The translations under genes and the position numbers were made by a program. Shown here in pieces: positions 37,430 through 63,135 of a stretch of DNA of 64,000 bases. How positions within the stretch are numbered: the first letter of the stretch is position 1; every line of letters starts with the position of its first letter. Origin of the DNA: Paralichthys olivaceus (lineage: Eukaryota > Chordata > Actinopteri > Pleuronectiformes > Paralichthyidae). Below the pieces are notes generated by a model, which saw only the letters and a program-made list of their open reading frames with translations, made no database searches and had not been told where the DNA came from. Location of the stretch: contig NC_091107.1 in the NCBI RefSeq assembly GCF_024713975.1, forward strand, positions 14,373,501-14,437,500, given 5' to 3'.

Positions 37430-40400
37430 TCAGACCTCCACTCTATCTCTACCAATGAGCTGAGCAGTGTCATCATCAGTGTGATGCCTTTCCTCTCCTG
37501 CGTCATCACTTTCTGAGTCTGTGTCCTCCTCAGGGGAGTGGTAGCCCTCATAAACCAGGATTGGAGAGTCGCAGTGAGCAGGAGAGGTGAGGCACTGGGC
37601 CGTGGTGGTGGTGGTGGATGAATAGGCTCCTGGGCTCCCAGAGGGGGAACTCAGGTTGGAGGGCCGGAGCAGAGGAGTGCGCTCCGAGTCTGCTTCACCC
37701 TCTGTCCCTTCCTCCTCCCCACGTCCTCCAGTATCCTCCTCAGACTCAGACTCAGAGTGCTCTTGGTTGTTTCGAGTGACGCGCTGTTTGCACACAGGAC
37801 ACGTCTTCTTGGTCTGTGTGAGCCATGGGTCCACACACTTGCAGTGATAGGCTGGAAAGCAGAGTTTTGAGAAAGATGATGAATAAAACACAACAAGTAT
37901 AAATGTACAAAAGATAAGACATAAAATAAAATGTGCATAAACTAGGTAAGAATAGTTTTTAAAAACAGTTTCAAAATACTTGCTATGAAAGCGTTATTTT
38001 TGCCAAGCAGACATAATTACTACCAGCAGATGCAGATGGATATTTATAAATTGGATATACTGTAGTGTAGTGTTTTCTCACTGGGCACTGAATGAAAACA
38101 GAGACCACCAGAAGGTGTTGTAACTGTATAGCAGCATAACTACTGGACATATTACAACAAAACTAGTAGGGTGGATGCAGTATGGGTCAGGGAAGAACCC
38201 ATTGCATTTTGGGGCAGATCCAGATCAGGGGCAGATGCATGATTTTTTTCACTTTCTTTAACATTGTGAGATTTCTCAGAGAATTTGTGGATTATAATGA
38301 AAATAATGATATTTACTAGTCTGTGGAAGTAGGTGGAGATTCAAATAAAAAAATCCAGACCTAGTGAATTTAAATGTGTTTTCATAAGGAGACTATTGGG
38401 CTTTGGTGTTGATACTGAGAACCACTCGGTATTTCATTATTTCATCTCTCCTCTTTTCCTCACATTGACTTTGTGTCTGCTAAAAACTGTCGCTGCAGTC
38501 TCATATATTTGTGGGTATTAACGTGAATTATCATTCAAAAAATATCAATAAAAACTTGAATTCACTGACTTAATGTAATGAAGACTTAAGACCACAACAG
38601 TCACTTATATTTTATCCATTTACACAACACAATGGATAAATTATTGCGTTTTAACTCCTCAATAGATTATCTAAAAGTGGAGTGGGACATTGCTTTGAAT
38701 CTGATTTTCTTCTCAACTGAGATTATGTAAAATATTTTGGTATAAACTGTATATTTGGAAATTGGCATTAGAGGAAAAAAATTCCCAGAGTGTCTACACA
38801 CAAGTCAAGTTTTCCTTAATAGACTGAGAATGTTCACAAACAATTTGTAGTAAGTCTTAGCCAATGCAAATATTTGCTTTGGGGCCATTAACTGTCTGTT
38901 TACCTTGCAAACATCCTGCATTCTAAGAGACTCTGGCAAAGCAACTAAGCATTTTAGTCCATGCAATAACATGATATCAACATAGTAATTACTTACCATG
39001 GGAACAGGGTAAAACTCGCAGCTTGTCTCCTTCTTCATACTCATCCAAACATATTGCACAAAGATCATAATCATCCCCTGAAACATAGAAGTCATTAACT
39101 TAATCCATTCAAATGTAAGTGAATTATCAATCATAATAATTATTATTATAATAATAATCTCGTTACCTTTACTGAATTTGTGGGTTGGAATCCGCTTCAG
39201 TTGTTCCTTGGACAAACGATTTTTCCTCAGCCTTTTTCTGAAGCGCACACATCGTATAATCTGAACAATACAAAAAGACATGGTTACTTGTGGCATGAAA
39301 ATTACAGTGCTCTAACATTCAACATGGACGGATTTGTTTTTTGTGTTCATTGACCCCAGCTCTTATAGTCAGTCAGTGAGTGACAAAATATGTTAGAAAA
39401 TATGTTTTCAAGGATCTTTTAAAAGTCACAAATTTAATTACGTTTATAAAGAGCTCATAAATCCAGATTTAAAGATCATCCGATCTTTAAATTTGTAGTG
39501 TGTGGTGCCGTTGAAACCAGGAAGTGGAGCTTTGACTGAGAACTGCTTATGGTATATAAGAGTGTAATGGAGATCACATATATAAGTGGATGCTTCTACG
39601 GTTGCTAGATCAACCATGAACAGTACTGACATATTGGACCAGTTGAGACTGTTCTTAAAAATGTTCAGTAAACAAGGGAGGTGCAGGCCCCAGGGGGTAT
39701 TCACATGTCACAGAAACTAATACAGGATTAGGAGTAGTAATAGTAGTAGTAGTACACCAGTATAATGTATTAACATTTTCACAATTAATACCTCTAGTGA
39801 GATTATAGTAGTGATATAACAAGACTAATAATATACAATACAATAATTACATGAATGATTATTATTATTTAATAATTATGAATACATAATATGAGTAATT
39901 ATAGATATTAACAATTGACTTACGCTTCTTGTCGGTTGAACAAATTTAGCACATAAAGATTGGCTGAAATCATGTTATATCATTATTTTATCCACAGAAG
40001 CACACTCAAAGCTCCCCTCTCATAACTACGATCCATATACTGTGTTACACAAGTGATTGGTTCATTGTCATTTGAGTTTGAGTCAAATGAAAATCTAAAA
40101 GTGGATTTTAATGAATGTATGGCATATTGACTATCAAGTAGAATGCTTTGTACATACTTACTAAGACAACACACATCACAAGAATGATCATGCCAACTAC
40201 TCCAGTGAAGGGAATAAGGTAGTACGACAATGGAAAAGAAAACTCTGGCTTGAGGATCACATAGGCCCTGCAGACCAAGAAAAGAAACATCCATCACATT
40301 CAACCTTTTCTCTTATGTTCGTATATTAACTTCTAAACATGTTCACATGTTTTTACTTACCCTAGTTCCGGAATTATAAAATTCCTGAGAATTTGGGAAG

Positions 40401-44475: not shown

Positions 44476-44880
44476 TCATGGTCTTTGTACGCAACATCTA
44501 AGAAAGAAATAATGTTTATTTTAATTCCATGAGAAAATAAATATACAATATATATTTATGTGCTGCATACGGACATCTGAACTTACAGATGGTCCATCTC
44601 ACAGCTCATCTTTCCAGGGGAGTATTCTGTTGACAGGCAACTGTGTCTACAGATTCCATCCAACCAGGAGCATAGCATTGTTGATGCATCATTCTCTGCA
44701 ACTAAAAACACAGATAAACATGACTATGTGTTTGTTAAAATCCTTTAGCTTTCAATCTTAAACAATAAATGTAAAAATGTGCAGGTATGAGCTGCAAAAA
44801 CACGCAGAGATGTATCAATACTCACCATAAAGCAGCAAGACAACGACCAGCACCAAAAGAGCCACACGATAACGAGACAT
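44476..44880 (-). CDS. Beta-defensin 1 of the array (most divergent copy)
   Basis: Three coding exons, 44880-44826, 44701-44587 and 44497-44476, giving 63 residues. Exon 1 encodes the hydrophobic signal peptide (MSRYRVALLVLVVVLLLY). Exon 2 encodes a short acidic propeptide and most of the mature peptide. Exon 3 begins inside a Leu codon and supplies Cys-Cys-Val-Gln-Arg-Pro-stop. Cysteine spacing is C-x6-C-x3-C-x11-C-x5-CC, the fish beta-defensin pattern. The three-exon layout is also that of fish beta-defensin genes. Beta-defensins are secreted cationic antimicrobial peptides with three disulfides. A TATA-like ATAAATA (minus strand) lies at 44947-44941, about 60 bp before the ATG. Unlike the young copies, it has no Pro-Lys propeptide repeat. 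It is nearest to rnf167. Confidence 0.85.
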
Positions 44881-45224
44881 TGTTGGGTCTGAAACTACGT
44901 CTTTCTCCAAAACGATGTTAAGACCCAGGATGGTTTGTCTTATTTATCTGCTCACCTCTGAGGAGGGGAGGAGTGAAATAGGAGATATAGGAGGAAAAGG
45001 GTTGGTCTCTAATTTATTTTCAGTTGTTATTATTATGCACATTTCAGAGTATTTCTTCTGGAGCTGTGTTTGTCAACTACCTGATGATGGAAAATGTATT
45101 GCCCTGCATTTTGTTAAAAAATTAAGGGTTGCTTGTCAAGTGATGGTGTATTTCATATAAAATGCAGTGTTTACCCCGAAATATTGCATATATTTCTTTT
45201 GATTATCAAAATGCATTTATGTTG

Positions 45225-45595
45225 TCCACTACATCTTTTTTTTTTTTTACACTTTTTCTGATATGACGTGATGTTAATCCACCTCAACAAAATCACGACT
45301 GTTTGCTCTCCTGGCTCTGAAATGGTGGAATGAGTTCCCCATTGGCACCAGGACAGCAGAAAGTCTACACATCTTTTGCCGCAGACTAAAAACACATCTC
45401 TTCCGACTATACCTTAGTGATGAAGATGATCGCTAGTAACTAATTTAAAAAGAACAAAAAAAACTTATATATGCAAATTGTACTTACTTGATTCTTGTTG
45501 TTTTGGGTTTGTTCCCTCATTGTTGATGCACTTATTGTAAGACGCTTTGGATGAAAGCGTCAGCTAAATGAAATGTAATTTAATGCAACACAATC
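45225..45595 (+). mobile_element. 3' end of an L2-type LINE
   Basis: The sequence encodes a remnant resembling the conserved C-terminus of fish L2 reverse transcriptase (WWNELPIGTRTAESL, then RRLKTHLFRLYL) with a stop. It ends in the typical tail TGTAAGACGCTTTGGATGAA followed by AGCGTCAGCTAAATG and short TGTAAT units. It is heavily 5' truncated. It lies in the first, older defensin unit. Confidence 0.75.
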
Positions 45596-46399
45596 ATTTA
45601 GGTGTTCAACCATAGACTGTGTTCAACACCACAAATATCTAGTTCGAGACTTATATGAGTTTGCAATGTTTAATCAGCCCTTGCAGCTTACCATGCCAAG
45701 GAGGTTACAGGAAAAACTGGTTGTTTTCTTACAAATGGGTTCAAATCACATGCCATTACTTTATTTCTTTATAAATCATTGCAATCAGTTTATATCTTCT
45801 AAAATGAAAGTTCATGGCACAGAACATAAAACATCCATGTTTGTCATATTCTGTCATTTTGAATGCTAGTTTTGGGTACCACAACTTTCATGTGACAGAT
45901 CTGCATCTGTAAACATCTGAAGTTTGCTCCATTGGTTAAACCAGAGAAAAACCACCAGGCAAAAGGACTACTAGTTTAACCAATGGCTGTAGGTCAGATT
46001 TTGTTTACAAAAGACGGCAATATAGTTTAAGTGGAGACTTAATGATGTTGAATGGGCTCTCAACTATCCAGGACGATATCCTGTAAATATCTACATACAA
46101 TGTATGACAAAACATGTGCCTAAATATTATAAATGATTTAAAAAAAAGTCAGTTTGATACCAGATAAATTTTGTTGCAGAACAGGGGTTACACAAAAATT
46201 TGCTTTATTGCCACTGTCTGATGTAGGTCAGATATCTGCCATGATACAAATAATGATTTATAACTTCTATGGTCAAAAATAAAAGTTGAGAAATGAAATG
46301 ATTGGAAAAACAATTTGTTCAAGAGTTGTACCAGGTCCCCAATTTTGAAAAGATATGACTATAGACTATACTTTACAAAAACAATAATAATTACAAGTT
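45596..46399. other. Unassigned part of older unit A
   Basis: AT-rich sequence with no supportable coding exon. It has no close copy in the young 2.62 kb units that I could align by eye. Confidence 0.35.
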
Positions 46400-46560
46400 T
46401 CAGCTGCTTTTCAACTCTCATTCAAAAGTTCTGAACTTAAAAAGTTGTCCTTGATTGAACCATTTCACAGAAAACAGTATTTACATGCCCTTGGCCTATG
46501 AAAATATTTGCTTTTGGGGGTAATTCATTTTTTTACTGCTCTAAAACAAACTGGAAAACA
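46400..46560 (-). pseudogene. Decayed rnf167 intron-derived segment in unit A
   Basis: The blocks TTCACAGAAAACAGTATTTAC and GCCTATGAAAATATTTGC, followed by GGGG and a TTAATT-like stretch, align in order with the rnf167 intron just 3' of its RING exon (about 38810-38905). No coding exon is retained here. The match is short and the call is tentative. Confidence 0.4.
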
Positions 46561-46599
46561 CTGTCTGAATGTTTCATTGAACATGACTTATTTTGTTTA

Positions 46600-47375
46600 A
46601 TTTTATTAATTTATTACCATTAATTCTGTGAAGAATTTAAATGTATAAGCTTCAGACTTGTTGATTCTGTCACAGTCATGAACCTGTAAACTTTGTAGGT
46701 CATGTTTCCTCATCACGTCCTGAGACACAACGTTATTCAGCTCCTCTTTCACCATCTGGCAAATTTGTTTGAGTATTCTAACACTGTGTGCTTCCATCAG
46801 CATTTTGGTTTGATATACTGCCAGTCATTGTTTATTATGGCAGGATCACTGCACCACATCCTTATCTTTCTTATAATGCAAGTCAGGAAGCCTGTGGTGT
46901 GATTTCAGTCGTGCCAAAGTCAAGACATCACCCTCACTGCCAGGCATCAGTGATGTCTCACATTATGAGTCATTTGGGAGGGAAAGGGAAAGGTAAGGAC
47001 AAAATAGTCCTTAATAAAATGAGGAGTATAATTTATGAATCTTTATTTATCAAGAGAAAAGATGCTTAACCATTATTGGTACTGATAATATCGGGTTGTC
47101 CTAGCAGTGATACTAGAGACCTGCCAGGTGGTCTTCAAAATCAAAATGGGTTTTACCTCTAGGTTGTATATGTGTGTATGAAAAGTGTTTATCCCTCTTG
47201 TAGGGAGCATCAATCAAATAAATAAATATATGATGAACGGTAAATAAATATCATGGCAATCTAAGCATTAGAAGTTGATATTACGGGCCTGTGAGTGCAT
47301 GAACCATTGGACTGATTGTGAATATAGATGTTACATGCAGCAAGGTCAGGCAGGGTCAAAGGGCCTGTGTGTTTT
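46600..47375. repeat. Segment shared by older units A and B (left part)
   Basis: From about 46805 (TACTGCCAGTCATTGTTTAT) to 47160 this is nearly identical to 51075-51440 in unit B, including GTGCCAAAGTCAAGACATCA and ATCGGGTTGTCCTA. The minus-strand frame at 46606-46803 is not recognised. The last about 200 bp are present only here; in unit B a LINE occupies the corresponding place. Confidence 0.7.
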
Positions 47376-48190
47376 CTTCCCTCTTGCCTGTCTCTCTGTC
47401 CCTCCCTTGCCTCTCTCTCCCAGGTGCTGCTGCTGCTGCTGCTGCTCATGATGCTGCTGCTGCTGCTGATGATGATGATGCTGCTGATGTTGTTGATGCT
47501 GCTGCTGCTGCTGTGGCTGCTGCTGCTGCTGCTGCTGCGCATGAAGCTAATGCTGATGTTGATGCTGATGCTGATGATGGCTGCCACCTGTGCTGCATCG
47601 GTTCAGCCTATCACAACCCAGGGCTCCAGAATAAAGGGAGCAAGTCTCTTCTTGACTCGGCCTCAGATCTGCTGCTACACGTGCTGTTTTGCTGATTGCT
47701 ATTGCAACTATTTGTAAGGTTTGTGGTGAGAGGTTTGTTTGTACATTAGTTAAGTCGGCACCCTATACACTTTTGCACACACAGAGTCACTTGTATAGAC
47801 ACACTAGGGTTATTGGTTGGTGTCACCCATGGATTTGGGAGAGCTGCTTCTTTAGATGAGTTAGTTAGGTATTTTGCTTGTTTTATTTCAGAATAGACAA
47901 AAGATCATGTTGTATATTGTTAATTCATTTCAGTTTCTTTGACACCAACCACCTTGTCCTCACCTGCCCCACATTTGTAAATCCTTTTGTTTGACTTTAC
48001 ACTTGTAAGTTAATTGTCTCTGTTTATAAATAAAGTGACATAACAGGTCAGAAGCTCATCTAAAGACAATGAATCTTTTGGAAACAAACAGGAAATAAAC
48101 ACCTGCTGATTAAATCTGATTAAACTGCTGTATTGTATGAATGGTCAGACAAATCTTCAAATATTAGGACGTTGTTCTGAGGGCTGCAAT
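47376..48190. repeat. Segment shared by older units A and B (CTG-repeat part)
   Basis: It starts TTCTTCCCTCTTGCCTGTCT and carries a CTG/ATG microsatellite (47425-47580), then CGGTTCAGCCTATCACAACC and a long stretch ending near AGGACGTTGTTCTGAGG. It matches 53030-53822. Unit B lacks about 70 bp around 47740-47815. AATAAA occurs near 48030. No protein family is recognised. Confidence 0.75.
47425..47580 (+). repeat. Compound CTG/ATG trinucleotide microsatellite, unit A
   Basis: Runs of CTG (CAG on the other strand) interrupted by ATG and occasional variants such as TGG and CGC. It causes the poly-Ala and poly-Leu frames here. Confidence 0.95.
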
Positions 48191-48214
48191 CACCATAATC
48201 AATATTATGCCAGT

Positions 48215-48845
48215 CTGGCTAATAGTTTTAGATATACATTTGTAAATATATAGACTATAGTGTACAACAACTGTATGATCAACTGAATATACCATCACAA
48301 CTTTAACTTCAGAACCAGTAACTTCTATGGTTATAAAGGTTCATACACCACTCATAATTAAATTTTGGGCTCTTAATTGATTAAAAGAAAAATCACATTC
48401 ATGACAAGGGGTCATAATGAATGCAACATAAGCCATCAATGTATTTTTTATATTGCTAAAGTTGACGTGCAGGGGCACTTTTCTGCTGGTAAAAACATGC
48501 AGCTAATTCAATTAGACCAAATGGAGCAAGTTCAAGCAGCCAACTCAAGCTGCGCTGCTCCAATTATGTGACAAACATCATGTGACATACCTCACCCTCC
48601 AGAATCATCTATAATACACACTCACCCTATTTGGGGGTACATTTAAGCAGAGAAAATTTCCTATCACTCCCTTTGCTTGCCCTCGTTGCTGCGTATTGCT
48701 GCCAGTGGCTTCAGCCCCTCCACCACCCCAGCATCCACCTGAAGGCTCCAACGGGGGGTTATGAGTATTTTCTCATCACTCCCATCATATCTATGTAATC
48801 ATATCTGGGGGAGGGATTAAGTCGGAGTATAGATGCCAAACACTA
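48215..48845. other. 630 bp present in unit A but absent from unit B
   Basis: The flanks AATATTATGCCAGTCT and AACATGTTCTACTGTTGTAA are adjacent in unit B (near 53850-53870) but separated here. The segment is therefore an insertion in unit A or a deletion in unit B. It holds no recognised coding sequence. Confidence 0.6.
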
Positions 48846-49453
48846 ACATGTTCTACTGTTGTAATAAACATTTGAACATGAGTTCTGACTGAACTCTGCT
48901 ATTGAGTCAGCAAAGGGATTTTTCTTTTCAACTGAACCCAAAGCAGGAATAAAAAAGATTCACCATGTGTATGTTTATGGACCTTTCACATGTGAAATGT
49001 ATTGGTAAAGCATGCAGTCCTCCCAATAAAGTTATGATTTCTACATCTTGTGGTTTGAGAAAGCAATGCTTCCACTTTCCCAAAAAATGATCTACAACGG
49101 CCGGACATCTTATTTACCTCAAATCACAATAAGAAGCAAATATGATTAAAAGGCAAATATGAACTTAGACAGAAGTCAGAGTCAAGACAGATATAGAGAT
49201 GTATGCAAAGTAAAAAGTATGAAAGATGATGGGATACCAAACTAATTTTTAGTTATAAATATTATAAATTATCCTATGATAAGGGATTCAACATTAAATA
49301 CAAAAAAGAGAAGATGTTCAATGTAATGCTTTATTCAGCCGTTTAAGCTAAATTTAAATCAGCAACAAGTCAGCCAAAGCAATCCTCCACAACGATGTCT
49401 TCTGTCTTGTCCCATCATCTGTGGTGCTTGGGAAGTCTTGTAGCTTGGCTGAA
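48846..49453. repeat. Shared flank before defensin 2
   Basis: It resembles 53860-54240 closely (ATGAGTTCTGACTGAACTCT, ACAACGGCCGGACATCTTAT). It also resembles, more weakly, the segment before the 3' end of each young defensin copy (GATGATGGGATGCC-type block). It includes the defensin 2 3' untranslated region. Confidence 0.6.
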
Positions 49454-49865
49454 TTATTTTTTGGGTAAGCAACATATCGGGCTAAAAAAGAAATGATACA
49501 TACTTTAATTCCACAAACAAATAAATATACAATATTTATTCATTTACTGCATCTGAACTTACAAAGTTTCTCCTAAACAGGCAAAATGTCCAGCAGGTTG
49601 GTATGATGAGGGGCAACTGTCTTTACAGACTCCATGCATCTGGGAGCAAATTGAAACATTTTGGACTGCTTCATTCTCTGCAACTGAAAACAAAGAGAAA
49701 CGTTATGTATGTTTTTGTTCAAATCCTTTCGTTGTCAATTAAAAAAAAACAAACTGTAAAAATGTGCAGATATGAGCTGCAAAAACATGCAGAGATGTAT
49801 CAATACTCACCCAAAACAAGCAAGACAACGACCAGCGCCAAAACAGCCACACGATAACGAGACAT
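49454..49865 (-). CDS. Beta-defensin 2 of the array
   Basis: Three coding exons, 49865-49811, 49683-49563 and 49481-49454, giving 67 residues. The signal peptide exon matches the other copies (MSRYRVAVLALVVVLLVL). The propeptide is short, without the Pro-Lys repeat. Cysteine spacing is C-x6-C-x3-C-x11-C-x7-CC, then Leu-Pro-Lys-Lys-stop. The mature part (CSQMHGVCKDSC, then PSSYQPAGHFAC) is quite different from its neighbours, while the signal exon and introns are similar. This is the usual defensin pattern of a conserved leader and a variable effector region. A TATA-like ATAAATA is at 49932-49926 on the minus strand. It should be a secreted antimicrobial peptide. Confidence 0.85.
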
Positions 49866-50880
49866 TGTTGGGTCTGAAACTGCGTCTTTCTCCAAAACGA
49901 TGTTTAGACCCAGGATGGTTTGTCTTATTTATCTGCTCACCTCTGAGGAGGGGAGGAGTGAAATAGGAGATGTAGGAGGAAATGGGTTGGTCTCTAATTT
50001 ATTTTCAGCAGTTAGTATAATTCATATTTCAGGCAGGTTCTCCTGGAGCTTTGTTTGTCAACTACCTGATGATGGAAAATTTAAGGTTTGTCTGTCAAAA
50101 CCTGCCTCTTGATTGTAAATCTATCTAGTGATTGTGTATTTCAAATTAAAAGTTTTTCTTTGAAATATTGCAATATTTTTTTTTTTTTTTACATTTGTTT
50201 GGACAGGATTTGTTCTCTAATATGACATGCTCTTAATCCATATTTGCCTTCATATAATTGTCATGGCAACACAATCATTTAAGCGTTCAACACCTGAAAT
50301 ATCTCTGGCATAATAAAGTTCAAAACCTGTTGTTCTTTGTAGGGTTTTATCCGTGCTTGTGGTGTGGTGAAGTTGTAGATTGTAGTTAATCCAAAACACA
50401 ATTTAAAACATGATTTAATCCAAAACCTAATTTATTTTTTCAAGCACCTAATTTAAACTTGGAAAATAAGGGAAACAAAGCAATTTTTAATAGCTATGGC
50501 TGTAAACCATAATTAACAACATTGTATATTGCTGTAACGTCTTAGGACAAACTACCACCAGAGGCTTCTATTGCTGCTGACTTCAGTTCAAGCAAGTGTT
50601 ATTGATAGTCTCTATGTTGAAGATGTAAAATATTGTATCTTTAACATTTTTCTATTTATTATTTATTTATTTAGTATTACGTTGATTGATCTGCAAAATG
50701 TATGTCTTTTGGTCAATAAACTGTTGACCTTACAAAGAGTCTATGTTCGACATCTCATGCTTTTATTGAGCCCAACAGTCACACTCTCCTCCCCTCACTT
50801 TTTTTGTCCTTCACATCTACACTGATGGAAATCTGTCTGAGCAATGGAACATTTTTAACCCTCAAATAATTTGATCACTT
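49866..50880. other. Upstream flank of defensin 2 and unassigned spacer
   Basis: The first about 290 bp match the promoter flank of the other copies. The rest is AT-rich without supportable exons. Confidence 0.4.
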
Positions 50881-50896
50881 GATATTAATTATTTAC

Positions 50897-50960
50897 CATG
50901 AGAACTGGGTGTAACTCACAACTTGTCTCTTTCATACTCGTCCAAACATATTGCACAATT
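50897..50960 (-). pseudogene. Decayed rnf167 RING exon in unit B
   Basis: On the minus strand the sequence encodes [13 protein letters not shown] followed at once by a stop codon. This matches the first half of the rnf167 RING ([14 protein letters not shown]). The trailing part (CCCAGTTCTCATG then GTAAAT) matches the rnf167 exon end and donor at 38997. A stop and a lost Cys show it is dead. It is in the same orientation as rnf167. Confidence 0.8.
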
Positions 50961-50999
50961 TTTATCTCTCTCAATTCTTCATTCTTTCAATTGTGTTCT

Positions 51000-51440
51000 A
51001 AGAAAACCTCCAAAGATTGAACAATTACACAGAAAACAGTATTTACATGCCCTTCGCCTATGAAAATATTTGCTTTATGGTTTTATATACTGCCAGTCAT
51101 TGTTTATTATGGCAGAACACTGTACCACACCAGTTCTAAGTCAGCTGCAAGTCAGGAAGCCTGTGGTGTAATTTCAGTTGTGCCAAAGTCAAGACATCAC
51201 CCTCACTGCCAGGCATCAGTAATGTCTCACATTATGAGTCATTTGGGAGGGAAAGGGAAAGGTAAGGACAAAATAGTCCTTAATAAAATGAGGAGTATGA
51301 TTTATGAATCTTTATTTATCAAGAGAAAAGATGCTTAACCATTATTGGTACTGATAATATCGGGTTGTCCTAACAGTGATACTAGAGACCTGCCAGGTGG
51401 TCTTCAAAATCAAAATGGGTTTTACCTCTAGGTTGTATAC
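51000..51440. repeat. Unit B copy of the shared A/B segment
   Basis: It contains ACACAGAAAACAGTATTTAC and ATGAAAATATTTGC, the rnf167-intron-like blocks also seen in unit A, followed by sequence nearly identical to 46805-47160. Confidence 0.65.
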
Positions 51441-51459
51441 CTCTAGGTTGTATATATAG

Positions 51460-53029
51460 TATGTATATGTACAAGGCTCCGGCTGCTTTTCTGTCTGAAC
51501 TATCTGAGCTCCTCACTCCTGTCTGTGCTATGTCTCCATCCAAAATTCTGCTTTGGGACTTTAACATCCACGTTGACACCCATGGCTGCAAATTGGCTTC
51601 TGAGTTCCTGTCTTTGCTGGACTGTGCAGCATGTACAAGGTCCCACCCACAGTAAAAGTCACACATTAGACCTAGTCTGTTCCACTGGCACCCCCCTCAC
51701 CAACCTACAGTGAGTGGACCCAACCAACTCCGGCCATTGTGCTATCACATTCAGTGTTCTTGCCTCCCTGCCCAGGGACCGCCCGAGGCAGACCATCATG
51801 TTCAGGAGTATTAAGACTGTAAGCACTCCAGTTTTGTCTAACCTGATTGCTGACTACCCGACAGATTCTTCCAGCTCATCGCCTGATGACATGGTCGCCT
51901 GCTACAATACTACACCATTCCTCAGCCGTGATTCTCTTGCTCCTCTAAAAACTCGGACTATTTCATTCACTCATCCTGCCCCCTGGTTTACCTCTGAGCT
52001 TCGCTCCATGAAAGCCAATGGTCAACGGCTGGAGAGGCTTTATATAAGAACCAGCCTCACCGTTCATCAGCTTGCTATTAAGGAACATGTCATTTCATAC
52101 AAGGATGCCCCCTCTCGGGCCAGGACCCAGTACTATTCCACTCTCATTGGATCCCAACAGAACCACCACAGGGCATTGTGCTCGCCCCCCTCTCTCCCCC
52201 CACACCCTTCCGGCGACTCTGAACTCTGCTCCAAGTTTCATAGCTTTTTTCAGGCTAAGGTCAAATCGATCCACCAGCAGCTTTGGACACCTTCATCCTC
52301 CATTTTGATGTCTCTGTCACAGGATGATCTTGCCCCTGCCACATGTCCCTCCCTCTCCTCTTTTACCCCAGTTGACACTTATCAAATAACTCAGTTGGTC
52401 ACCAAGGCCAAGGCCTCCACTTGCTCCCTGGACCCCATGTCCACGGCTCTGGTCAAGGCCTGCCGCCCGTCTGTCAGCTCTCATATTACATACATTGTCA
52501 ATGCATCACTTCTGTCTGGTTCGGTACCCATCAGTTTGAAAACTGCCTTCGTCACTCCCATCCTGGAGAAGGTCGGCTTTGACCCTACTGACCTTGGCAA
52601 CTATCATCCGATCTCCAACCCCCCATTCATCAGTAAGACACTCAAGAGAGCAGTTGATGCCCAGCTCCACCATCACATGTCCACCAATGAACTTTATGAG
52701 CTATTTCATTCTGCCTACAGGGCCCACCACAGCACAGCGACTGCCCTGGTGACCTCCTGATGGCTGCTGACTCTGGCTACATCAGCATTCTGGGTCTGTT
52801 GGACCATACTGCTGCCTTCAACACGGTTTCCCACTCCATTCTTCTAACCCACCTTTCCACCCACCTTGGACTCACTGGTACTGCTCTGTCCTGGTTACAC
52901 TCCTACCTGTCTGACAGGAAACAGTTTGTCACAATTAATGGATCCAGCTCTCAACCTGCCCCAGTCAGCTACGGTGTGCCGCAAGGTTCTGTCCTTGGCC
53001 CCCTCCTTTTCACCATTTACATTCTGTGA
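51460..53029 (+). mobile_element. Truncated non-LTR retrotransposon (L2/CR1-like LINE)
   Basis: The fragment encodes, with frame breaks and stops, the end of the endonuclease domain (DFNIHVDTHG), then a 348-codon open frame at 51714-52760. The reverse transcriptase follows: GNYHPISNPPFISKTLKRAV, an [11 protein letters not shown] block with the expected catalytic Asp region altered, and [14 protein letters not shown]. It stops at 53029 before the usual YADD box, so both ends are missing. The 3' edge joins directly to the TTCTTCCCTCTTGCC sequence shared with unit A, and the left edge has a duplicated CCTCTAGGTTGTATA. It is a dead copy in unit B. Confidence 0.85.
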
Positions 53030-53850
<821 letters not shown>

Positions 53851-54833
53851 AGTCTAACATTTTCTACTGTTGTAATACACATTTGAACATGAGTTCTGAC
53901 TGAACTCTGCTATTGAGTCAGCAAAGGGATTTTTTTTTTCAACTGAACACAAAGCAGGAATGAAAAAGATTCACAATGTGTATGTGTATGGACCTTTCAC
54001 ATGTGAAGTGTATTGGTAAAGCATGCAGTCCTCCCAATAAAGTTATGCAGTTAAAAGTTAAAATTATCTACAACGGCCGGACATCTTATTTACCGCAAAT
54101 CACATGAAGAAGCAAATATGAGTAAAAGCAAAATATGAACTTGGACAGAAGTCAGAGTCGAGACAGATATACAGATGTATGCACAGTAAAATGTATGAAA
54201 GACGATGGGATACCAAACAAATTTTTTGTTTTAGTGAATTTCAGTGAATCTAAATTTCTTGAAACAATGCAACACACTGTTACATTCTGAAAGGGCAAAA
54301 ACACAGTTACTAGTCCAACTATAAATAAAAAATCTGTCTGTCTATCTGTCCTTAAACTCAAAAGGTGGGACATGCAATTAACCTTAAGTCATGCAAGTAG
54401 GGGTTAGGTTACTTTGTGAAAAGTATGTTTTCACTTCCTTCTTGTTAGGGACCCAAAATGATGGCCTGCTTCTGTCAAACATGTTTCATATGAACCACAA
54501 ATCCCATTTGGAAGCAAACATGAGTGAAAACAAAGTACTTTGAGTCAAGACAGAAATGTAGATGTTTTCACTTCAAATATAAAAGATGATGGGATGCCAA
54601 TCAAATAGTGGCAGATTTGTAGTTTTAGTTGAAAGTAAAATGATCTTCTGATGAATCATACAACTTTAAGTAAAAGAATACAAACAAGAAAAGTTGTTCA
54701 ATGTAATGTTTTATTCAACCATTGGAGCTGCATTCAAATCAGCAACACGTCAGCCAATGCAAATCCTCCACAACGATGTCTTCTGTCTGTCCCATCATCT
54801 GTGATGCTTGGCAAGTCTTGTATCTTGGCTGAA

Positions 54834-55282
54834 TTATGGTTTGGTTACGCAACATACAGTTCTGAAAAAGAAACAATACATACTTTAATTCCACCGGCAA
54901 ATAAATAGACAATATTTACTCACATGCTGCATCTAAGCATCTGAACTTACGAACTCTCTGCGGAACAGCCGAGAGCTCCAATAGAGAATTCTGTTGAGAG
55001 GCAACTGTCTTTGCAGACTCCCTGTATGGTGGAGCAATCTGCCTTAGGTCGGTCTGGCTTAGGTCGGTCTGCCTTAGGTCGATCTGCTTCATTCTCTGCA
55101 ACTGAAAACAAAGAGAAACGTTATGTATGTTTTTGTTCAAATCCTTTCGTTGTCAATTAAAAAAAAATAACTATAAAAATGTGCAGATATGAGCTGCAAA
55201 AACATGCAGAGATGTATCAATACTCACCAAAAACAAGCAAGACAACGACCAGCGCCAAAACAGCCACACGATAACAAGACAT
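54834..55282 (-). CDS. Beta-defensin 3 of the array (long propeptide)
   Basis: Three coding exons, 55282-55228, 55101-54951 and 54861-54834, giving 77 residues. The propeptide after VAENEA carries three DRPK-type repeats (DRPKA, DRPKP, DRPKA). The mature peptide starts DCSTIQGVCKDSC and has spacing C-x6-C-x3-C-x11-C-x7-CC, ending Val-Thr-Lys-Pro-stop. The third exon joins through a split Ser codon (TC + A), which brings the Cys-Cys into frame. The signal peptide has Cys at position 3 where the other copies have Arg. A TATA-like ATAAATA is at 55349-55343. AATAAA in the 3' untranslated region is at 54715-54710. Confidence 0.88.
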
Positions 55283-55529
55283 TGTTGGGTCTGAAACTGC
55301 GTCTTTCTCCAAAACGATGTTTAGACCCAGGATGGTTTGTCTTATTTATCTGCTCACCTCTGAGGAGGGGAGGAGTGAAATAGGAGATATAGGAGGAAAT
55401 GGGTTGGTCTCTAATTTATTTTCAGCAGTTAGTATAATTCATATTTCAAGCTGGTTCTCCTGGGGCTGTGTTTGTCAACTACCTGATGATGGAAAATTGG
55501 AGGTTTGCCTGTCCAAACCTGCCTCTTGG

Positions 55530-55950
55530 TTTTAAATCTATCTAGCGATTGTGTATTTCAAATCAAACGTTTTTGTTGAAATATTGCAATGTTCTTCAAT
55601 TCTCAAAGTATATGTGTATAGTCTACCACAGAGATGAAAGAAGACATTTCATTCAGTTTTACTTTATATGCAAGGACAATTTCTTCACTTTACTTTTGCC
55701 TCTCAGTGTTGAAGAAAACATGGTATTTGAGCAACAAAGAAAATGATAAACCAAGACTGGACTTGTGTCAGAACCAAAAACTACATTCACAAGGCCCTAC
55801 AGAAATAGGGTTTTCAGGACCAGAAGTATTTATGCTTAAGGACATTTCATCTCATATCCAAGACATTCAAGAAAGGTGAAACTTTGTCAAGTATCTACAA
55901 CCAAGTCCAGTTGCCATCGCTGGAACCGGTTTTGGATAAACGTGACCTAG
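55530..55950. other. Unassigned 400 bp of the young unit (copies at 58143, 60774 and 63383)
   Basis: It contains a plus-strand frame around 55634-55879 (ENDKPRLDLCQNQKLHSQG) that is open in units 1, 2 and 4 of the young array but lacks the same open start in the third. The frame overlaps others and has no family match. I regard it as probable non-coding spacer. Confidence 0.4.
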
Positions 55951-55951
55951 A

Positions 55952-56175
55952 TAACTGAGAATCTTCACAGACGACTATGTCAACCTGCCCTGAGCATATA
56001 GAAATATACGTTTTAGGTTCATTAACTATGTGTTAACCTTTCAAAAAGCCCCTCCCCTCACCAGAATCCAACAGAGTTTTATAGTAGCAGTGGAAGATGT
56101 CATTCTGTGTAATAATATGATAACGACATATTGAATATTTACCATGGGAACAGGGTCAAACTCGACCCACCACGT
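55952..56175 (-). pseudogene. rnf167 intron/RING-exon remnant, young unit 1
   Basis: Order and orientation match rnf167 at about 38815-39015. Shared blocks are ACTGAGAATCTTCACA, TTCATTAACTATGTGTTAACC, AATATGATAACGACAT and TTTACCATGGGAACAGGGT. The last covers the exon end and donor (ATGG, then GTAAAT read from the other strand). The rest of the exon diverges after about 30 bp, so no RING can be made. Confidence 0.75.
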
Positions 56176-56385
56176 TTGAAGTCAATTTGGCTGAGCAGCT
56201 TTCCAGAAGATTCCATGACAGATGGTGTTTCTGCCATGTCATTGTCTTTTTTAGTCGGTTCAAAATGTGCCTGTTGGTTTGTGTGGCATTATTTCAAAAG
56301 AAATCCATAAGATTTTTAAAAGACATTTTGTGTACAATTAGCATGTTACACCACGACAACGAGTTCAAACATCATGGACCTCGAA

Positions 56386-56525
56386 ATAAAATGACAATCA
56401 TTGCATCTGATGGGAACATTTTGTGACATTGGCATGATGCGATGGTGTCAATAGAAGCGGATGGTGTATTGATGTGTAGCCATTAAGTGGCGCGACACCA
56501 CCAAAACTCCCTTTCACTTACATAA
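56386..56525 (-). pseudogene. rnf167 PA-domain exon remnant, young unit 1
   Basis: It aligns with the rnf167 exon 40717-40854. Shared blocks are CATCTGATGGGAACATTTTG, GGCATGATGCGATGGTG, GTGTAGCCATTAAGTGG and GACACCACCAAAACTCCC. Internal deletions destroy the frame. Orientation is as in rnf167. Confidence 0.75.
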
Positions 56526-56529
56526 ATAC

Positions 56530-56760
56530 ATATTCTCACCAAAGGTGCCAATGATTGATCCCTGTGGGACACCACAAGTCAGGGGGACCCCAGAAGATGA
56601 GGCATTACCCATAACTATTACGACAGTTCTGCATGATGAATCAGATTTAAATGAGTCCAGAGCATTTTACCTGACGCCAACCCACTTTTCAAGAAGATCT
56701 AGTAGGATAGACTGATCCATGGGTATCAGAATGGAGCTCTGGGTATGCTTTTTTGTATCG
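56530..56760 (-). mobile_element. LINE reverse transcriptase fragment, young unit 1
   Basis: The minus strand encodes LDLLEKWVGV, a stop, and then CGVPQGSIIG. This is the conserved reverse transcriptase region before the catalytic YADD box in fish non-LTR elements. It is decayed and short. Confidence 0.7.
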
Positions 56761-57461
56761 TAAAATGGTAACGTATAACATTTCAACTAAGCTTGAACCA
56801 GCTCATTTTGTTATGAAATGCTTTCTTTTTGGAATTGAACTTAAAATCTTAGAAAACCCAATGAACTTCAATGAATCTAACTTTTCTTGAAACAATGCAA
56901 CACACTGTTACATTCTGAAAGGGCAAAAACACAGTTACTAGTCCAACTATAAATTAAAAATCTGTCTGTCTATCTGTCCTTAAACTCAAAAGGTGGGACA
57001 TGCAATTAACCTTAAGTCATGCAAGTAGGGGTTAGGTTACTTTGTGAAAAGTATGTTTTCACTTCCTTCTTGTTAGGGACCCAAAATGATGGTCTGCTTC
57101 TGTCAAACATGTTTCATATGAACCACAAATCCCATTTGGAAGCAAACATGAGTGAAAACAAAGTACTTTGAGTCAAGACAGAAATGTAGATGTTTTCACT
57201 CCATATATAAAAGATGATGGGATGCCAATCAAATAGTGACAGATTTGTAGTTTTAGTTGAAAGTAAAATGATCTTCTGATGAATCATACAACTTTAAGTA
57301 AAAGAATACAAACAAGAAAAGTTGTTCAATGTAATGTTTTATTCAACCATTGGAGCTGCATTCAAATCAGCAACACGTCAGCCAAAGCAAATCCTCCACA
57401 ACGATGTCTTCTGTCTGTCCCATCATCTGTGATGCTTGGCAAGTCTTGTATCTTGGCTGAA

Positions 57462-57895
57462 TTATGGTTTGGTTACGCAACATACAGTTCTGAAAAAGAA
57501 ACAATACATACTTTAATTCCACCGGCAAATAAATAGACAATATTTACTCACATGCTGCATCTAAGCATCTGAACTTACGAACTCTCTGCGGAACAGCCGA
57601 GAGCTCCAATAGAGAATTCTGTTGAGAGGCAACTGTCTTTACAGACTCCCTGTATGGTGGAGCAATCCAACTTAGGTCGGTCTGGCTTAGGTTGGTCTGC
57701 TTCATTCTCTGCAACTGAAAACAAAGAGAAACGTTATGTATGTTTTTGTTCAAATCCTTTCGTTGTCAATTAAAAAAAAATAACTGTAAAAATGTGCAGA
57801 TATGAGCTGCAAAAACATGCAGAGATGTATCAATACTCACCAAAAACAAGCAAGACAACGACCAGCGCCAAAACAGCCACACGATAACGAGACAT
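57462..57895 (-). CDS. Beta-defensin 4 of the array (short propeptide)
   Basis: Three coding exons, 57895-57841, 57714-57579 and 57489-57462, giving 72 residues. Exon 2 is exactly 15 nt shorter than in defensins 3 and 5, removing one pentapeptide. The propeptide reads ADQPKPDRPKL before the first Cys. The mature region is the same as in defensin 3 as far as I can read (CSTIQGVCKDSC to SAESSTVCCVTKP). A TATA-like ATAAATA is at 57962-57956. Confidence 0.88.
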
Positions 57896-58562
57896 TGTTG
57901 GGTCTGAAACTGCGTCTTTCTCCAAAACGATGTTTAGACCCAGGATGGTTTGTCTTATTTATCTGCTCACCTCTGAGGAGGGGAGGAGTGAAATAGGAGA
58001 TATAGGAGGAAATGGGTTGGTCTCTAATTTATTTTCAGCAGTTAGTATAATTCATATTTCAAGCTGGTTCTCCTGGGGCTGTGTTTGTCAACTACCTGAT
58101 GATGGAAAATTGGAGGTTTGCCTGTCCAAACCTGCCTCTTGGTTTTAAATCTATCTAGCGATTGTGTATTTCAAATCAAACGTTTTTGTTGAAATATTGC
58201 AATGTTCTTCAATTCTCAAAGTATATGTGTATAGTCTACCACAGAGATGATAGAAGACATTTCATTCAGTTTTACTTTACATGCAAGGACAATTTCTTCA
58301 CTTTACTTTTGCCTCTCAGTGTTGAAGAAAACATGGTATTTGAGCAACAAAGAAAATGATAAACCAAGACTGGACTTGTGTCAGAACCAAAAACTACATT
58401 CACAAGGCCCTACAGAAATAGGGTTTTCAGGACCAGAAGTGTTTATGCTTAAGGACATTTCATCTCATATCCAAGACATTCAAGAAAGGTGAAACTTTGT
58501 CAAGTATCTACAACCAAGTCCAGTTGTCATCGCTGGAACCAGTTTTGGATAAACGTGACCTA

Positions 58563-58790
58563 GATAACTGAGAATCTTCACAGACGACTATGTCAACCTG
58601 CCCTGAGCATACAGAAATATACGTTTTAGGTTCATTAACTATCTGTTTACCTTTCAAAAAGCCCCTCCCCTCACCAGAATCCAACAGAGTTTTATAGTAG
58701 CAGTGGAAGATGTCATTCTGTGTGATAATATGATAATGACATATTGAATATTTACCATGGGAACAGGGTCAAACTCGACCCACCACATTT
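58563..58790 (-). pseudogene. rnf167 intron/RING-exon remnant, young unit 2
   Basis: Same structure as the copy at 55952, here with TTCATTAACTATCTGTTTACC, which is closer to the parental intron (TTAACTGTCTGTTTACC). Confidence 0.75.
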
Positions 58791-59003
58791 GAAGTCAATT
58801 TGGATGAGCAGCTTTCCAGAAGATTCTATGACAGACAGATGGTGTTTCTGCCATGTCATTGTCTTTTTTAGTCATTTCAAAATGTGCCTGTTGGTTTGTG
58901 TGGCATTATTTCAAAAGAAATCCATAAGATTTTCAAAAGACATTCTGTGTCAATTAGCATGTTACACCACGACAACACATTCAAACATCATGGACCTCGA
59001 AAT

Positions 59004-59145
59004 AAAATGACAATCATGGCAACTGATGGGAACATTTTGTGATGTTGGCATGATGCGATGGTGTCAATAGAAGCAGATGGTTTATTGATGTGTAGCCATT
59101 AAGTGGCGCGACACCACCAAAATTCCCTTTCACTTACATAAATAC
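59004..59145 (-). pseudogene. rnf167 PA-domain exon remnant, young unit 2
   Basis: Aligns with rnf167 40717-40854 as in unit 1, with changes such as CAATCATGGCAACTGATGGG and CCAAAATTCCC. Confidence 0.72.
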
Positions 59146-59375
59146 ATATTCTCACCAAAGGTGCCAATGATTGATCCCTGTGGGACACCACAAGTCAGGG
59201 GGGCCCCAGAAGATGAGGCATTACCCATAACTATTACGACAGTTCTGCATGATGAATCAGATTTAAATGAGTCCACAGCATTTTACCCGACGCCAACCCA
59301 CTTTTCAAGAAGATCTAGTAGGATAGACTGATCCATGGGTATCAGAATGGAGCTCTGGGTATGCTTTTTTGTATC
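59145..59375 (-). mobile_element. LINE reverse transcriptase fragment, young unit 2
   Basis: Paralogue of 56530-56760 with the same GVPQGS-type block on the minus strand and a few substitutions. Confidence 0.7.
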
Positions 59376-60077
59376 GTAAAATGGTAACGTATAACATTTC
59401 AACTAAGCTTGAACCAGCTCATTTTGTTATGAAATGCTTTCTTTTTGGAATTGAACTTAAAATCTTAGAAAACCCAATGAACTTCAATGAATCTAACTTT
59501 TCTTGAAACAATGCAACACACTGTTACATTCTGAAAGGGCAAAAACACAGTTACTAGTCCAACTATAAATTAAAAATCTGTCTGTCTATCTGTCCTTAAA
59601 CTCAAAAGGTGGGACATGCAATTAACCTTAAGTCATGCAAGTAGGGGTTAGGTTACTTTGTGAAAAGTATGTTTTCACTTCCTTCTTGTTAGGGACCCAA
59701 AATGATGGTCTGCTTCTGTCAAACATGTTTCATATGAACCACAAATCCCATTTGGAAGCAAACATGAGTGAAAACAAAGTACTTTGAGTCAAGACAGAAA
59801 TGTAGATGTTTTCACTTCATATATAAAAGATGATGGGATGCCAATCAAATATTGACAGATTTGTAGTTTTAGTTGAAAGTAAAATGATCTTCTGATGAAT
59901 CATACAACTTTAAGTAAAAGAATACAAACAAGAAAAGTTGTTCAATGTAATGTTTTATTCAACCATTGGAGCTGCATTCAAATCAGCAACACGTCAGCCA
60001 AAGCAAATCCTCCACAACGATGTCTTTTGTCTGTCCCATCATCTGTGATGCTTGGCAAGTCTTGTATCTTGGCTGAA

Positions 60078-60526
60078 TTATGGTTTGGTTATGCAACATA
60101 CAGTTCTGAAAAAGAAACAATACATACTTTAATTCCACCGGCAAATAAATAGACAATATTTACTCACATGCTGCATCTAAGCATCTGAACTTACGAACTC
60201 TCTGCAGAACAGCCAAGAGCTCCAATAGAGAATTCTGTTGAGAGGCAACTGTCTTTACAGACTCCCTGTATGGTGGAGCAATCTGCCTTAGGTCGGTCTG
60301 GCTTAGGTCGGTCTGCCTTAGGTCGATCTGCTTCATTCTCTGCAACTGAAAACAAAGAGAAACGTTATGTATGTTTTTGTTCAAATCCTTTCGTTGTCAA
60401 TTAAAAAAAAATAACTGTAAAAATGTGCTGATATGAGCTGCAAAAACATGCAGAGATGTATCAATACTCACCAAAAACAAGCAAGACAACCACCAGCGCC
60501 AAAACAGCCACACGATAACGAGACAT
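60078..60526 (-). CDS. Beta-defensin 5 of the array (long propeptide)
   Basis: Three coding exons, 60526-60472, 60345-60195 and 60105-60078, giving 77 residues. The propeptide has three DRPK-type repeats as in defensin 3. After the final Cys-Cys there is Ile instead of Val (CCITKP). The signal peptide is of the standard MSRYRV type. A TATA-like ATAAATA is at 60593-60587. Confidence 0.88.
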
Positions 60527-61179
60527 TGTTGGGTCTGAAACTGCGTCTTTCTCCAAAACGATGTTTAGACCCAGGATGGTTTGTCTTATTTATCTGCTCA
60601 CCTCTGAGGAGGGGAGGAGTGAAATAGGAGATATAGGAGGAAATGGGTTGGTCTCTAATTTATTTTCAGCAGTTAGTATAATTCATATTTCAAGCTGGTT
60701 CTCCTGGGGCTGTGTTTGTCAACTACCTGATGATGGAAAATTGGAGGTTTGCCTGTCCAAACCTGCCTCTTGGTTTTAAATCTATCTAGCGATTGTGTAT
60801 TTCAAATCAAACGTTTTTGTTGAAATATTGCAATGTTCTTCAATTCTCAAAGTATATGTGTATAGTCTACCACAGAGATAATAGAAGACATTTCATTCAG
60901 TTTTGCTTTACATGCAAGGACAATTTCTTCACTTTACTTTTGCCTCTCAGTGTTGAAGAAAACATGGTATTTGAGCAACAAAGAAAATAATAAACCAAGA
61001 CTGGACTTGTGTCAGAACCAAAAACTACATTCACAAGGCCCTACAGAAATAGGGTTTTCAGGACCAGAAGTGTTTATGCTTAAGGACATTTCATCTCATA
61101 TCCAAGACATTCAAGAAAGGTGAAACTTTGTCAAGTATCTACAACCAAGTCCAGTTGCCATCGCTGGAGCCAGTTAACG

Positions 61180-61405
61180 TGACCTAGATAACTGAGAATC
61201 TTCACAGACGACTATGTCAACCTGCCCTGAGCATACAGAAATATACGTTTTAGGTTCATTAACTATCTGTTTACCTTTCAAAAAGCCCCTCCCCTCACCA
61301 AAATCCAACAGAGTTTTATAATAGCAGTGGAAGATGTCATTCTGTGTATTAATATGATAATGACATATTGAATATTTACCATGGGAACAGGGTCAAACTC
61401 GACCC
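61180..61405 (-). pseudogene. rnf167 intron/RING-exon remnant, young unit 3
   Basis: Same landmarks as in unit 1. Just upstream, this unit lacks a few bases of the TTTTGGATAAACGTGACC block present in the others. Confidence 0.72.
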
Positions 61406-61628
61406 ACCACGTTTGAAGTCAATTTGGATGAGCAGCTTTCCAGAAGATTCCATGACAGACAGATGGTGTTTCTGCCATGTCATTGTCTTTTTTAGTCGGT
61501 TCAAAATGTGCCTGTTGGTTTGTGTGGCATTATTTCAAAAGAAATCCATAAGATTTTTAAAAGACATTTTGTGTACAATTAGCATGTTACACCACGACAA
61601 CACGTTCAAACATCGTGGACCTCGAAAT

Positions 61629-61765
61629 AAAATGACAATCATTGCATCTGATGGGAACATTTTGTGACGTTGGCATGATGCGATGGTGTCAATAGAAGCG
61701 GATGGTGTATTGATGTGTAGCCATTAAGTGGCGCGACACCACCAAAACTCCCTTTCACTTACATA
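61629..61765 (-). pseudogene. rnf167 PA-domain exon remnant, young unit 3
   Basis: Aligns with rnf167 40717-40854 and is nearly identical to the copy in unit 1. Confidence 0.72.
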
Positions 61766-61774
61766 AATACATAT

Positions 61775-61995
61775 TCTCACCAAAGGTGCCAATGATTGAT
61801 CCCTGTGGGACACCACAAGTCAGGGGGACCCCAGAAGATGAGGCATTACCCATAACTATTACGACAGTTCTGCATGATGAATCAGATTTAAATGAGTCCA
61901 GAGCATTTTACCTGACGCCAACCCACTTTTCAAGAAGATCTAGTAGGATAGACTGATCCATGGGTATCAGAATGGAGCTCTGGGTATGCTTTTTT
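61775..61995 (-). mobile_element. LINE reverse transcriptase fragment, young unit 3
   Basis: Paralogue of 56530-56760 and almost identical to it. Confidence 0.7.
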
Positions 61996-62702
61996 GTATC
62001 GTAAAATGGTAACGTATAACATTTCAACTAAGCTTGAACCAGCTCATTTTGTTATGAAATGCTTTCTTTTTGGAATTGAACTTAAAATCTTAGAAAACCC
62101 AATGAACTTCAATGAATCTAACTTTTCTTGAAACAATGCAACACACTGTTACATTCTGAAAGGGCAAAAACACAGTTACTAGTCCAACTATAAATTAAAA
62201 ATCTGTCTGTCTATCTGTCCTTAAACTCAAAAGGTGGGACATGCAATTAACCTTAAGTCATGCAAGTAGGGGTTAGGTTACTTTGTGAAAAGTATGTTTT
62301 CACTTCCTTCTTGTTAGGGACCCAAAATGATGGTCTGCTTCTGTCAAACATGTTTCATATGAACCACAAATCCCATTTGGAAGCAAACATGAGTGAAAAC
62401 AAAGTACTTTGAGTCAAGACAGAAATGTAGATGTTTTTACTTCATATATAAAAGATGATGGGATGCCAATAAAATAGTGGCAGATTTGTAGTTTTAGTTG
62501 AAAGTAAAATGATCTTCTGATGAATCATACAACTTTAAGTAAAAGAATACAAACAAGAAAAGTTGTTCAATGTAATGTTTTATTCAACCATTGGAGCTGC
62601 ATTCAAATCAGCAACACGTCAGCCAAAGCAAATCCTCCACAACGATGTCTTCTGTCTGTCCCATCATCTGTGATGCTTGGCAAGTCTTGTATCTTGGCTG
62701 AA

Positions 62703-63135
62703 TTATGGTTTGGTTATGCAACATACAGTTCTGAAAAAGAAACAATACATACTTTAATTCCACCGGCAAATAAATAGACAATATTTACTCACATGCTGCA
62801 TCTAAGCATCTGAACTTACGAACTCTCTGCGGAACAGCCGAGAGCTCCAATAGAGAATTCTGTTGAGAGGCAACTGTCTTTACAGACTCCCTGTATGGTG
62901 GAGCAATCCAACTTAGGTCGGTCTGGCTTAGGTTGGTCTGCTTCATTCTCTGCAACTGAAAACAAAGAGAAACGTTATGTATGTTTTTGTTCAAATCCTT
63001 TCGTTGTCAATTAAAAAAAATAACTGTAAAAATGTGCAGATATGAGCTGCAAAAACATGCAGAGATGTATCAATACTCACCAAAAACAAGCAAGACAACG
63101 ACCAGCGCCAAAACAGCCACACGATAACGAGACAT
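62703..63135 (-). CDS. Beta-defensin 6 of the array (short propeptide)
   Basis: Three coding exons, 63135-63081, 62955-62820 and 62730-62703, giving 72 residues. The two-repeat propeptide (ADQPKPDRPKL) is as in defensin 4. It has CCITKP at the end as in defensin 5, so it mixes markers of both neighbours. A TATA-like ATAAATA is at 63202-63196. Confidence 0.88.

Follow-up and report, generated by a model that had tools for sequence, protein, structure and literature searches.

A tandem array of 18 predicted beta-defensin genes, the probable source of the anionic beta-defensins of olive flounder

Fish are usually credited with 1 to 7 beta-defensin genes (PMC8231796, PMC4690011), and in teleosts these have three exons, with cysteines 1 to 4 encoded in exon 2 and cysteines 5 and 6 in exon 3 (PMC3636224). 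One group of such peptides, fBDI, is known from olive flounder. Papers citing Nam et al. (2010) describe its members as anionic and 67 to 77 amino acids (aa) long with a proregion of 5 to 15 aa (PMC8231796), and give the proregion as basic and the mature peptide as anionic (PMC8231796, PMC8116387). Five peptides with an isoelectric point (pI) around 4 are mentioned in PMC3978493, five gene copies in PMC4690011, and basic pro-pieces with pI values of 8.75 and 8.59 in PMC8116387. Hao et al. (PMC8698591) describe a 77-aa peptide, fBD, with a 24-aa signal; it is reported to inhibit five bacteria, to act as an attractant for leukocytes, and to be present in extracellular traps. Here we describe a tandem gene array on contig C15 of a 588-Mb genome (25 contigs) that we take, with a probability of roughly 0.8, to be the genomic source of these anionic beta-defensins of olive flounder or a very close relative. 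The window is the 64-kb stretch C15:14373501-14437500; adjacent 10-kb stretches were added to it (six for tracing the array), and motif and primer scans covered 144 kb. Coordinates above 64000 continue the window numbering.

Scripted modelling yielded 18 intact three-exon gene models spanning 55.4 kb of C15, 6 of them inside the window, on its minus strand, and 12 outside. In each of the six window models the introns are GT..AG and a single reading frame is kept, with a coding exon 1 of 55 nt, an exon 2 of 115 to 151 nt, and a coding exon 3 of 22 to 28 nt. The window genes, named here for the position of the ATG, run from g63135 to the final coding base of g44880 at 44476. The precursor of g63135 (62703..63135; exons 63081-63135 and 62820-62955, coding exon 3 62703-62730) is 72 aa long and is encoded identically by 11 of the 18 genes. 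That of g57895 (57462..57895; exons 57841-57895, 57579-57714, 57462-57489) has the same length and differs by one residue, while g60526 (60078..60526; exons 60472-60526, 60195-60345, 60078-60105) and g55282 (54834..55282; exons 55228-55282, 54951-55101, 54834-54861) each encode 77 aa. The other two are diverged: g49865 (49454..49865; exons 49811-49865, 49563-49683, 49454-49481) encodes 67 aa and g44880 (44476..44880; exons 44826-44880, 44587-44701, 44476-44497) 63 aa. The array extends past 64000 to about 101297, with ATGs at 65751, 68367, 76353, 78969, 81585, 84201, 86817, 89433, 92049, 94665, 97297, and 99887. A search of the same genome gave 16 matches at E ≤ 0.001, every one on C15. The initial annotation had proposed at least six genes of this form, with MSRYRV or MSCYRV starts and a third exon under 30 nt. 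All six are intact, five starting with MSRYRV and g55282 with MSCYRV, and their coding exon 3 measures 28 nt (22 nt in g44880). The proposed count falls short, because the contig beyond the window holds another 12 intact models as well as one canonical defensin gene.

Six cysteines in the order C-x6-C-x3-C-x11-C-x5..7-CC are encoded by all 18 array models and by the canonical gene (gene 19), in each case divided between exon 2 (Cys1-4) and exon 3 (Cys5-6). The predicted Cys-Cys ending was found in all six window products, at a spacing of 6-3-11-7-0 (6-3-11-5-0 in g44880). Sixteen genes, all but g49865 and g44880, encode precursors of 67, 72, or 77 aa in which an Asp-x-Pro-Lys repeat forms a proregion of 5, 10, or 15 aa between signal and core; the two diverged genes are without it. 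In the window this repeat is encoded by a 15-bp minisatellite in exon 2, which a repeat scan placed on the minus strand at 62912..62940 (about 1.9 copies; proregion DQPKPDRPKL), 60282..60331 (about 3.3 copies; proregion DRPKADRPKPDRPKA), 57671..57699 (about 1.9 copies), and 55038..55087 (about 3.3 copies). The computed pI of the proregion is 5.84 for 5 aa, 8.59 for 10 aa, and 10.27 for 15 aa. The core of the same 16 genes has a net charge of -2 and a pI of 4.32, compared with net charges of -1 in g44880, +1 in g49865, and +2 (pI 8.30) in gene 19. The propeptide had been annotated as acidic or Pro-Lys; the contrast is sharper than that, with an acidic core in 16 of the 18 genes behind a Pro-Lys proregion that is neutral (5 aa) to basic (10 and 15 aa). 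A cationic mature peptide, which is usual rather than defining for teleost beta-defensins, is absent from these 16 genes and from g44880. An open reading frame with four cysteines also recurs in the array units (62389, 59764, 57148, 54520). We considered it as an extra defensin exon and take it as noncoding; in diverged DNA judged homologous by eye, another frame is open (54183, 49207).

That the array genes are beta-defensin genes is supported by profile searches. The Pfam model Defensin_beta_2 (PF13841) matched all seven products scanned at E ≤ 1, from 0.00015 at best to 0.72 for g49865. Scored against the curated cut-off of 22.2 bits, gene 19 reached 22.6, the main array product 21.5, the 77-aa form 21.2, g44880 18.8, and g49865 10.8, so that gene 19 alone among these five passed. 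Searching the whole genome in six frames with the Pfam family yielded 26 weak matches, each to a single exon (17 on C15, 9 elsewhere), and all fell short of the cut-off. When gene 19 was the query, 19 of 21 matches at E ≤ 10 were on C15, and the others were on C11 (E 0.64) and C21 (E 1.1); around the C11 match, which was considered as a second defensin locus, there was no defensin exon. The type-2 defensin motif CPRR[YLF][KR] did not occur in the 144 kb scanned. Searches of solved structures gave weak matches only (1, 2, and 13 sequences at the limits used), and the search with 13 matches listed gap junction proteins first (0.016), then defensin 6 (0.032, 0.047) and a crocodile defensin (0.36).

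The array agrees with the published flounder peptides in many particulars. Its 16 genes other than g49865 and g44880 share with the fBDI group the precursor range of 67 to 77 aa and the proregion range of 5 to 15 aa cited above, and like fBDI and fBD they have a 24-aa signal, an acidic core, and six cysteines. The core pI of 4.32 corresponds to the published "around 4" (PMC3978493), and the value of 8.59 for the 10-aa proregion equals one of the two given for the pro-pieces (PMC8116387). We also placed the fBD primers of PMC8698591, with their cloning tails left off, on the 144 kb: the outer forward primer had exact sites at 16 loci, the inner forward at 17, and the inner reverse at 3. Several observations weigh against this identification. 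The outer reverse primer is without an exact site, the nearest being one mismatch away at 54744 and two mismatches away at 15 sites. The 5-aa proregion is neutral and not basic. For their isoform Hao et al. give a pI of 5.7 (53-aa form) and 4.8 (whole) (PMC8698591), whereas the 77-aa genes here compute to 7.76 and 7.55, respectively; their isoform is therefore not exactly one of the three 77-aa genes, or its pI was computed otherwise. The main array product misses the Pfam cut-off by a small margin, and in the six-frame search two places outside C15, themselves below the cut-off, outscored the array exons. These two weak matches, at C4:21189215-21189277 and C16:8231155-8231214, may be due to chance.

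The array peptides themselves are thus already known. The initial annotation had suggested more novelty than this, as the group has been on record from olive flounder since 2010. The gene number differs: the published set comprises five isoforms or genes (PMC3978493, PMC4690011), compared with 18 genes and one canonical gene here. A genome survey enters 0 under "BD" for Paralichthys olivaceus in its Table 2 (PMC8533284), which suggests that such genes get missed. In the open-licence literature, where most hits were judged by their listing alone, we found no report of the copy number of the array, of the 15-bp coding minisatellite with which proregion length and charge vary, or of a shared promoter/signal module with divergent mature exons.

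Gene 19, whose ATG (103299) is 3.4 kb beyond that of the last array gene, encodes a canonical beta-defensin. After its 24-aa signal, its 42 aa, the predicted mature peptide, are identical to those of a European sea bass precursor whose sequence is given in PMC11925980, and it shares with the beta-defensin 1 of sea bass and seabream the exon plan and the signal end NEA/A. The array precursor is only 48% identical to gene 19, and the array cores differ from canonical beta-defensin 1 in being acidic. The arrangement differs as well: the sea bass and seabream genes are described in PMC11541337 as not clustered, with seabream defb2 between spag7 and mepce, whereas the array here is tandem.

The array is built of repeat units of about 2,616 b, three of which lie whole in the window (2.61 to 2.63 kb each; 55283..63135, minus strand). 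We aligned 15 whole units, one of them with its insertion removed. Of these, five are mutually identical and adjacent (13 kb together), and a further two form an identical pair that is a single base away from this group. Eight units (57895, 60526, 63135, 65751, 68367, 76353, 97297, and 99887) are each distinct from all others; only 92049/94665 and the five identical units are unseparated by sequence. Inner units are identical and those near the ends most diverged, with at most 42 mismatches in one pair. Since 15 whole units align, five are identical over 2,616 b, and all 18 models are open, the array is beyond chance. The unit identities, about 98 to 100%, bear out the recent tandem expansion that had been suggested, and their pattern fits unequal crossing-over with concerted evolution. 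The further suggestion that the expansion is lineage-specific would depend on the published counts of 1 to 7 genes in other fish. One unit outside the window is interrupted by a 5,364-b insertion (68746-74109; L009/L010), which is bounded by two terminal repeats of 477 b, identical to each other, and flanked by a target duplication of 6 b. The insertion contains a long open reading frame, and two 400-aa pieces taken from this frame match models of protease, reverse transcriptase, RNase H, and integrase. By these features, the insertion is a recent long terminal repeat retroelement, whose arrival would be very recent because the terminal repeats are identical.

About 5 kb separates the two diverged genes, and the spacers flanking g49865 share several matching stretches, most of them at 90 to 97%. 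These spacers are paralogous, and each has a long trinucleotide (TGC/TGA) array at the corresponding place (47425-47584 and 53084-53295). The 5' module of g49865, from 150 b upstream of the ATG through exon 1 to the end of intron 1 (49686..50015, minus strand), agrees with that of g63135 at 327 of 330 bases. Downstream, the agreement falls to 85/121 in exon 2, 67/81 in intron 2, and 134/149 in the 150 b past the stop. Divergence in exon 2 of g49865 exceeds that of intron 2 and the 150-b 3' flank taken together (p 0.00015); against intron 2 alone the excess is marginal (p 0.048). Gene conversion at the 5' end, faster change of exon 2, or both would produce this pattern. In g44880 the divergence is more gradual, and exon 2 and the 3' flank have diverged alike (64.3% and 64.7%, respectively). 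In the mature region, the ratio of nonsynonymous to synonymous change (dN/dS, NG86) was 2.05 for the array against g49865 and 1.89 for the array against g44880, and about 1 against gene 19 (0.98, 1.01, and 0.93 for the array, g49865, and g44880 as a set). The excess of nonsynonymous over synonymous change was not significant (Fisher p 0.12), and we do not claim positive selection on the mature region as shown.

How far can the gene count and the functional reading of the models be trusted? Identical units may be expanded or collapsed when reads are joined, and reads shorter than a 13-kb run of identical units cannot count its copies reliably. The real array might thus be shorter or longer than the assembled one, given the five identical units in a row and the two others one base away. 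We nevertheless consider it rather unlikely that the copy number is partly an artefact of this kind: eight of the 15 units are each unique, one carries a retroelement, and counting each unseparated set once still leaves 13 of the 18 genes. That g49865 and g44880 are decaying copies or pseudogenes that do not yield functional peptides seems improbable. In both, the reading frame is open, the splice sites and all six cysteines are in place, and the promoter/signal module is retained (97.5% and 92.0%, respectively, over 200 b upstream), although the Pfam match of g49865 is as weak as noted above.

If the array is indeed the source of the flounder peptides, it probably arose by tandem duplication of the neighboring canonical gene or of an ancestor shared with it, and it would have grown by unequal crossing-over of the 2.6-kb unit. 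Each gene would give a secreted precursor from which the 24-aa signal is removed, the Asp-x-Pro-Lys proregion would offset the acidic charge of the core, and a six-cysteine peptide with three disulphides would be released for host defence, acting on bacteria and leukocytes. In teleost beta-defensins the disulphides join cysteines 1-5, 2-4, and 3-6 in a fold of three strands. Many near-identical copies probably raise the dosage, and the two outlying copies pair much the same promoter/signal module with different mature peptides. By analogy with the one isoform studied in PMC8698591, the array peptides are probably antibacterial and leukocyte-attracting. The peptides might instead have moved from host defence to another role, such as reproductive or mucosal signalling, aided by the charge reversal of the core (net +2 in gene 19, -2 in 16 copies); a grouper beta-defensin is reported as mainly expressed in pituitary and testis (PMC3004800). 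The activity of an anionic flounder isoform against bacteria at 2 to 16 μg/mL (PMC8698591) speaks against such a shift, which we regard as the least probable of the alternatives. Tentatively, the locus may be a charge-tuning array, in which gene conversion spreads a shared promoter/signal module onto fast-diverging mature exons and the 15-bp minisatellite sets the positive charge of the proregion against an inverted, acidic core. This would be the mirror image of the alpha-defensin propiece, whose charge likewise offsets that of the mature peptide (PMC8116387). The human 8p23 beta-defensin and DEFA1/DEFA3 copy-variable clusters are also tandem and rich in defensin copies; here the charges are reversed and the gene structure differs, so the likeness is an analogy only.

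The low-coordinate side of the array holds exons of SRRT/ARS2, of a DGAT2/MOGAT-type acyltransferase (22665-23956, plus strand), and of a RING protein. The annotation had placed the cluster next to rnf167, and a RING exon does lie on this side (37433-37993). Its identity as rnf167 is plausible and not settled, as the exon scores below the Pfam cut-offs and, among solved structures, matches best to RNF13 (E 2e-12), a close paralogue of RNF167. On the far side are a CNKSR-type exon and, just past gene 19 and outside the window, two single-exon olfactory receptor genes (L013:3310-4278 and L013:8901-9863) with open frames of 323 and 321 aa.

The locus is a large and clean instance of something already known, and it comes with a charge-tuning idea that can be tested. 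An array of at least 18 genes beside a canonical relative in a farmed species offers a place to test copy number, proregion length, and charge reversal in an innate defence peptide. It also serves as a warning that surveys based on complementary DNA or on gene prediction can miss genes with such small exons.

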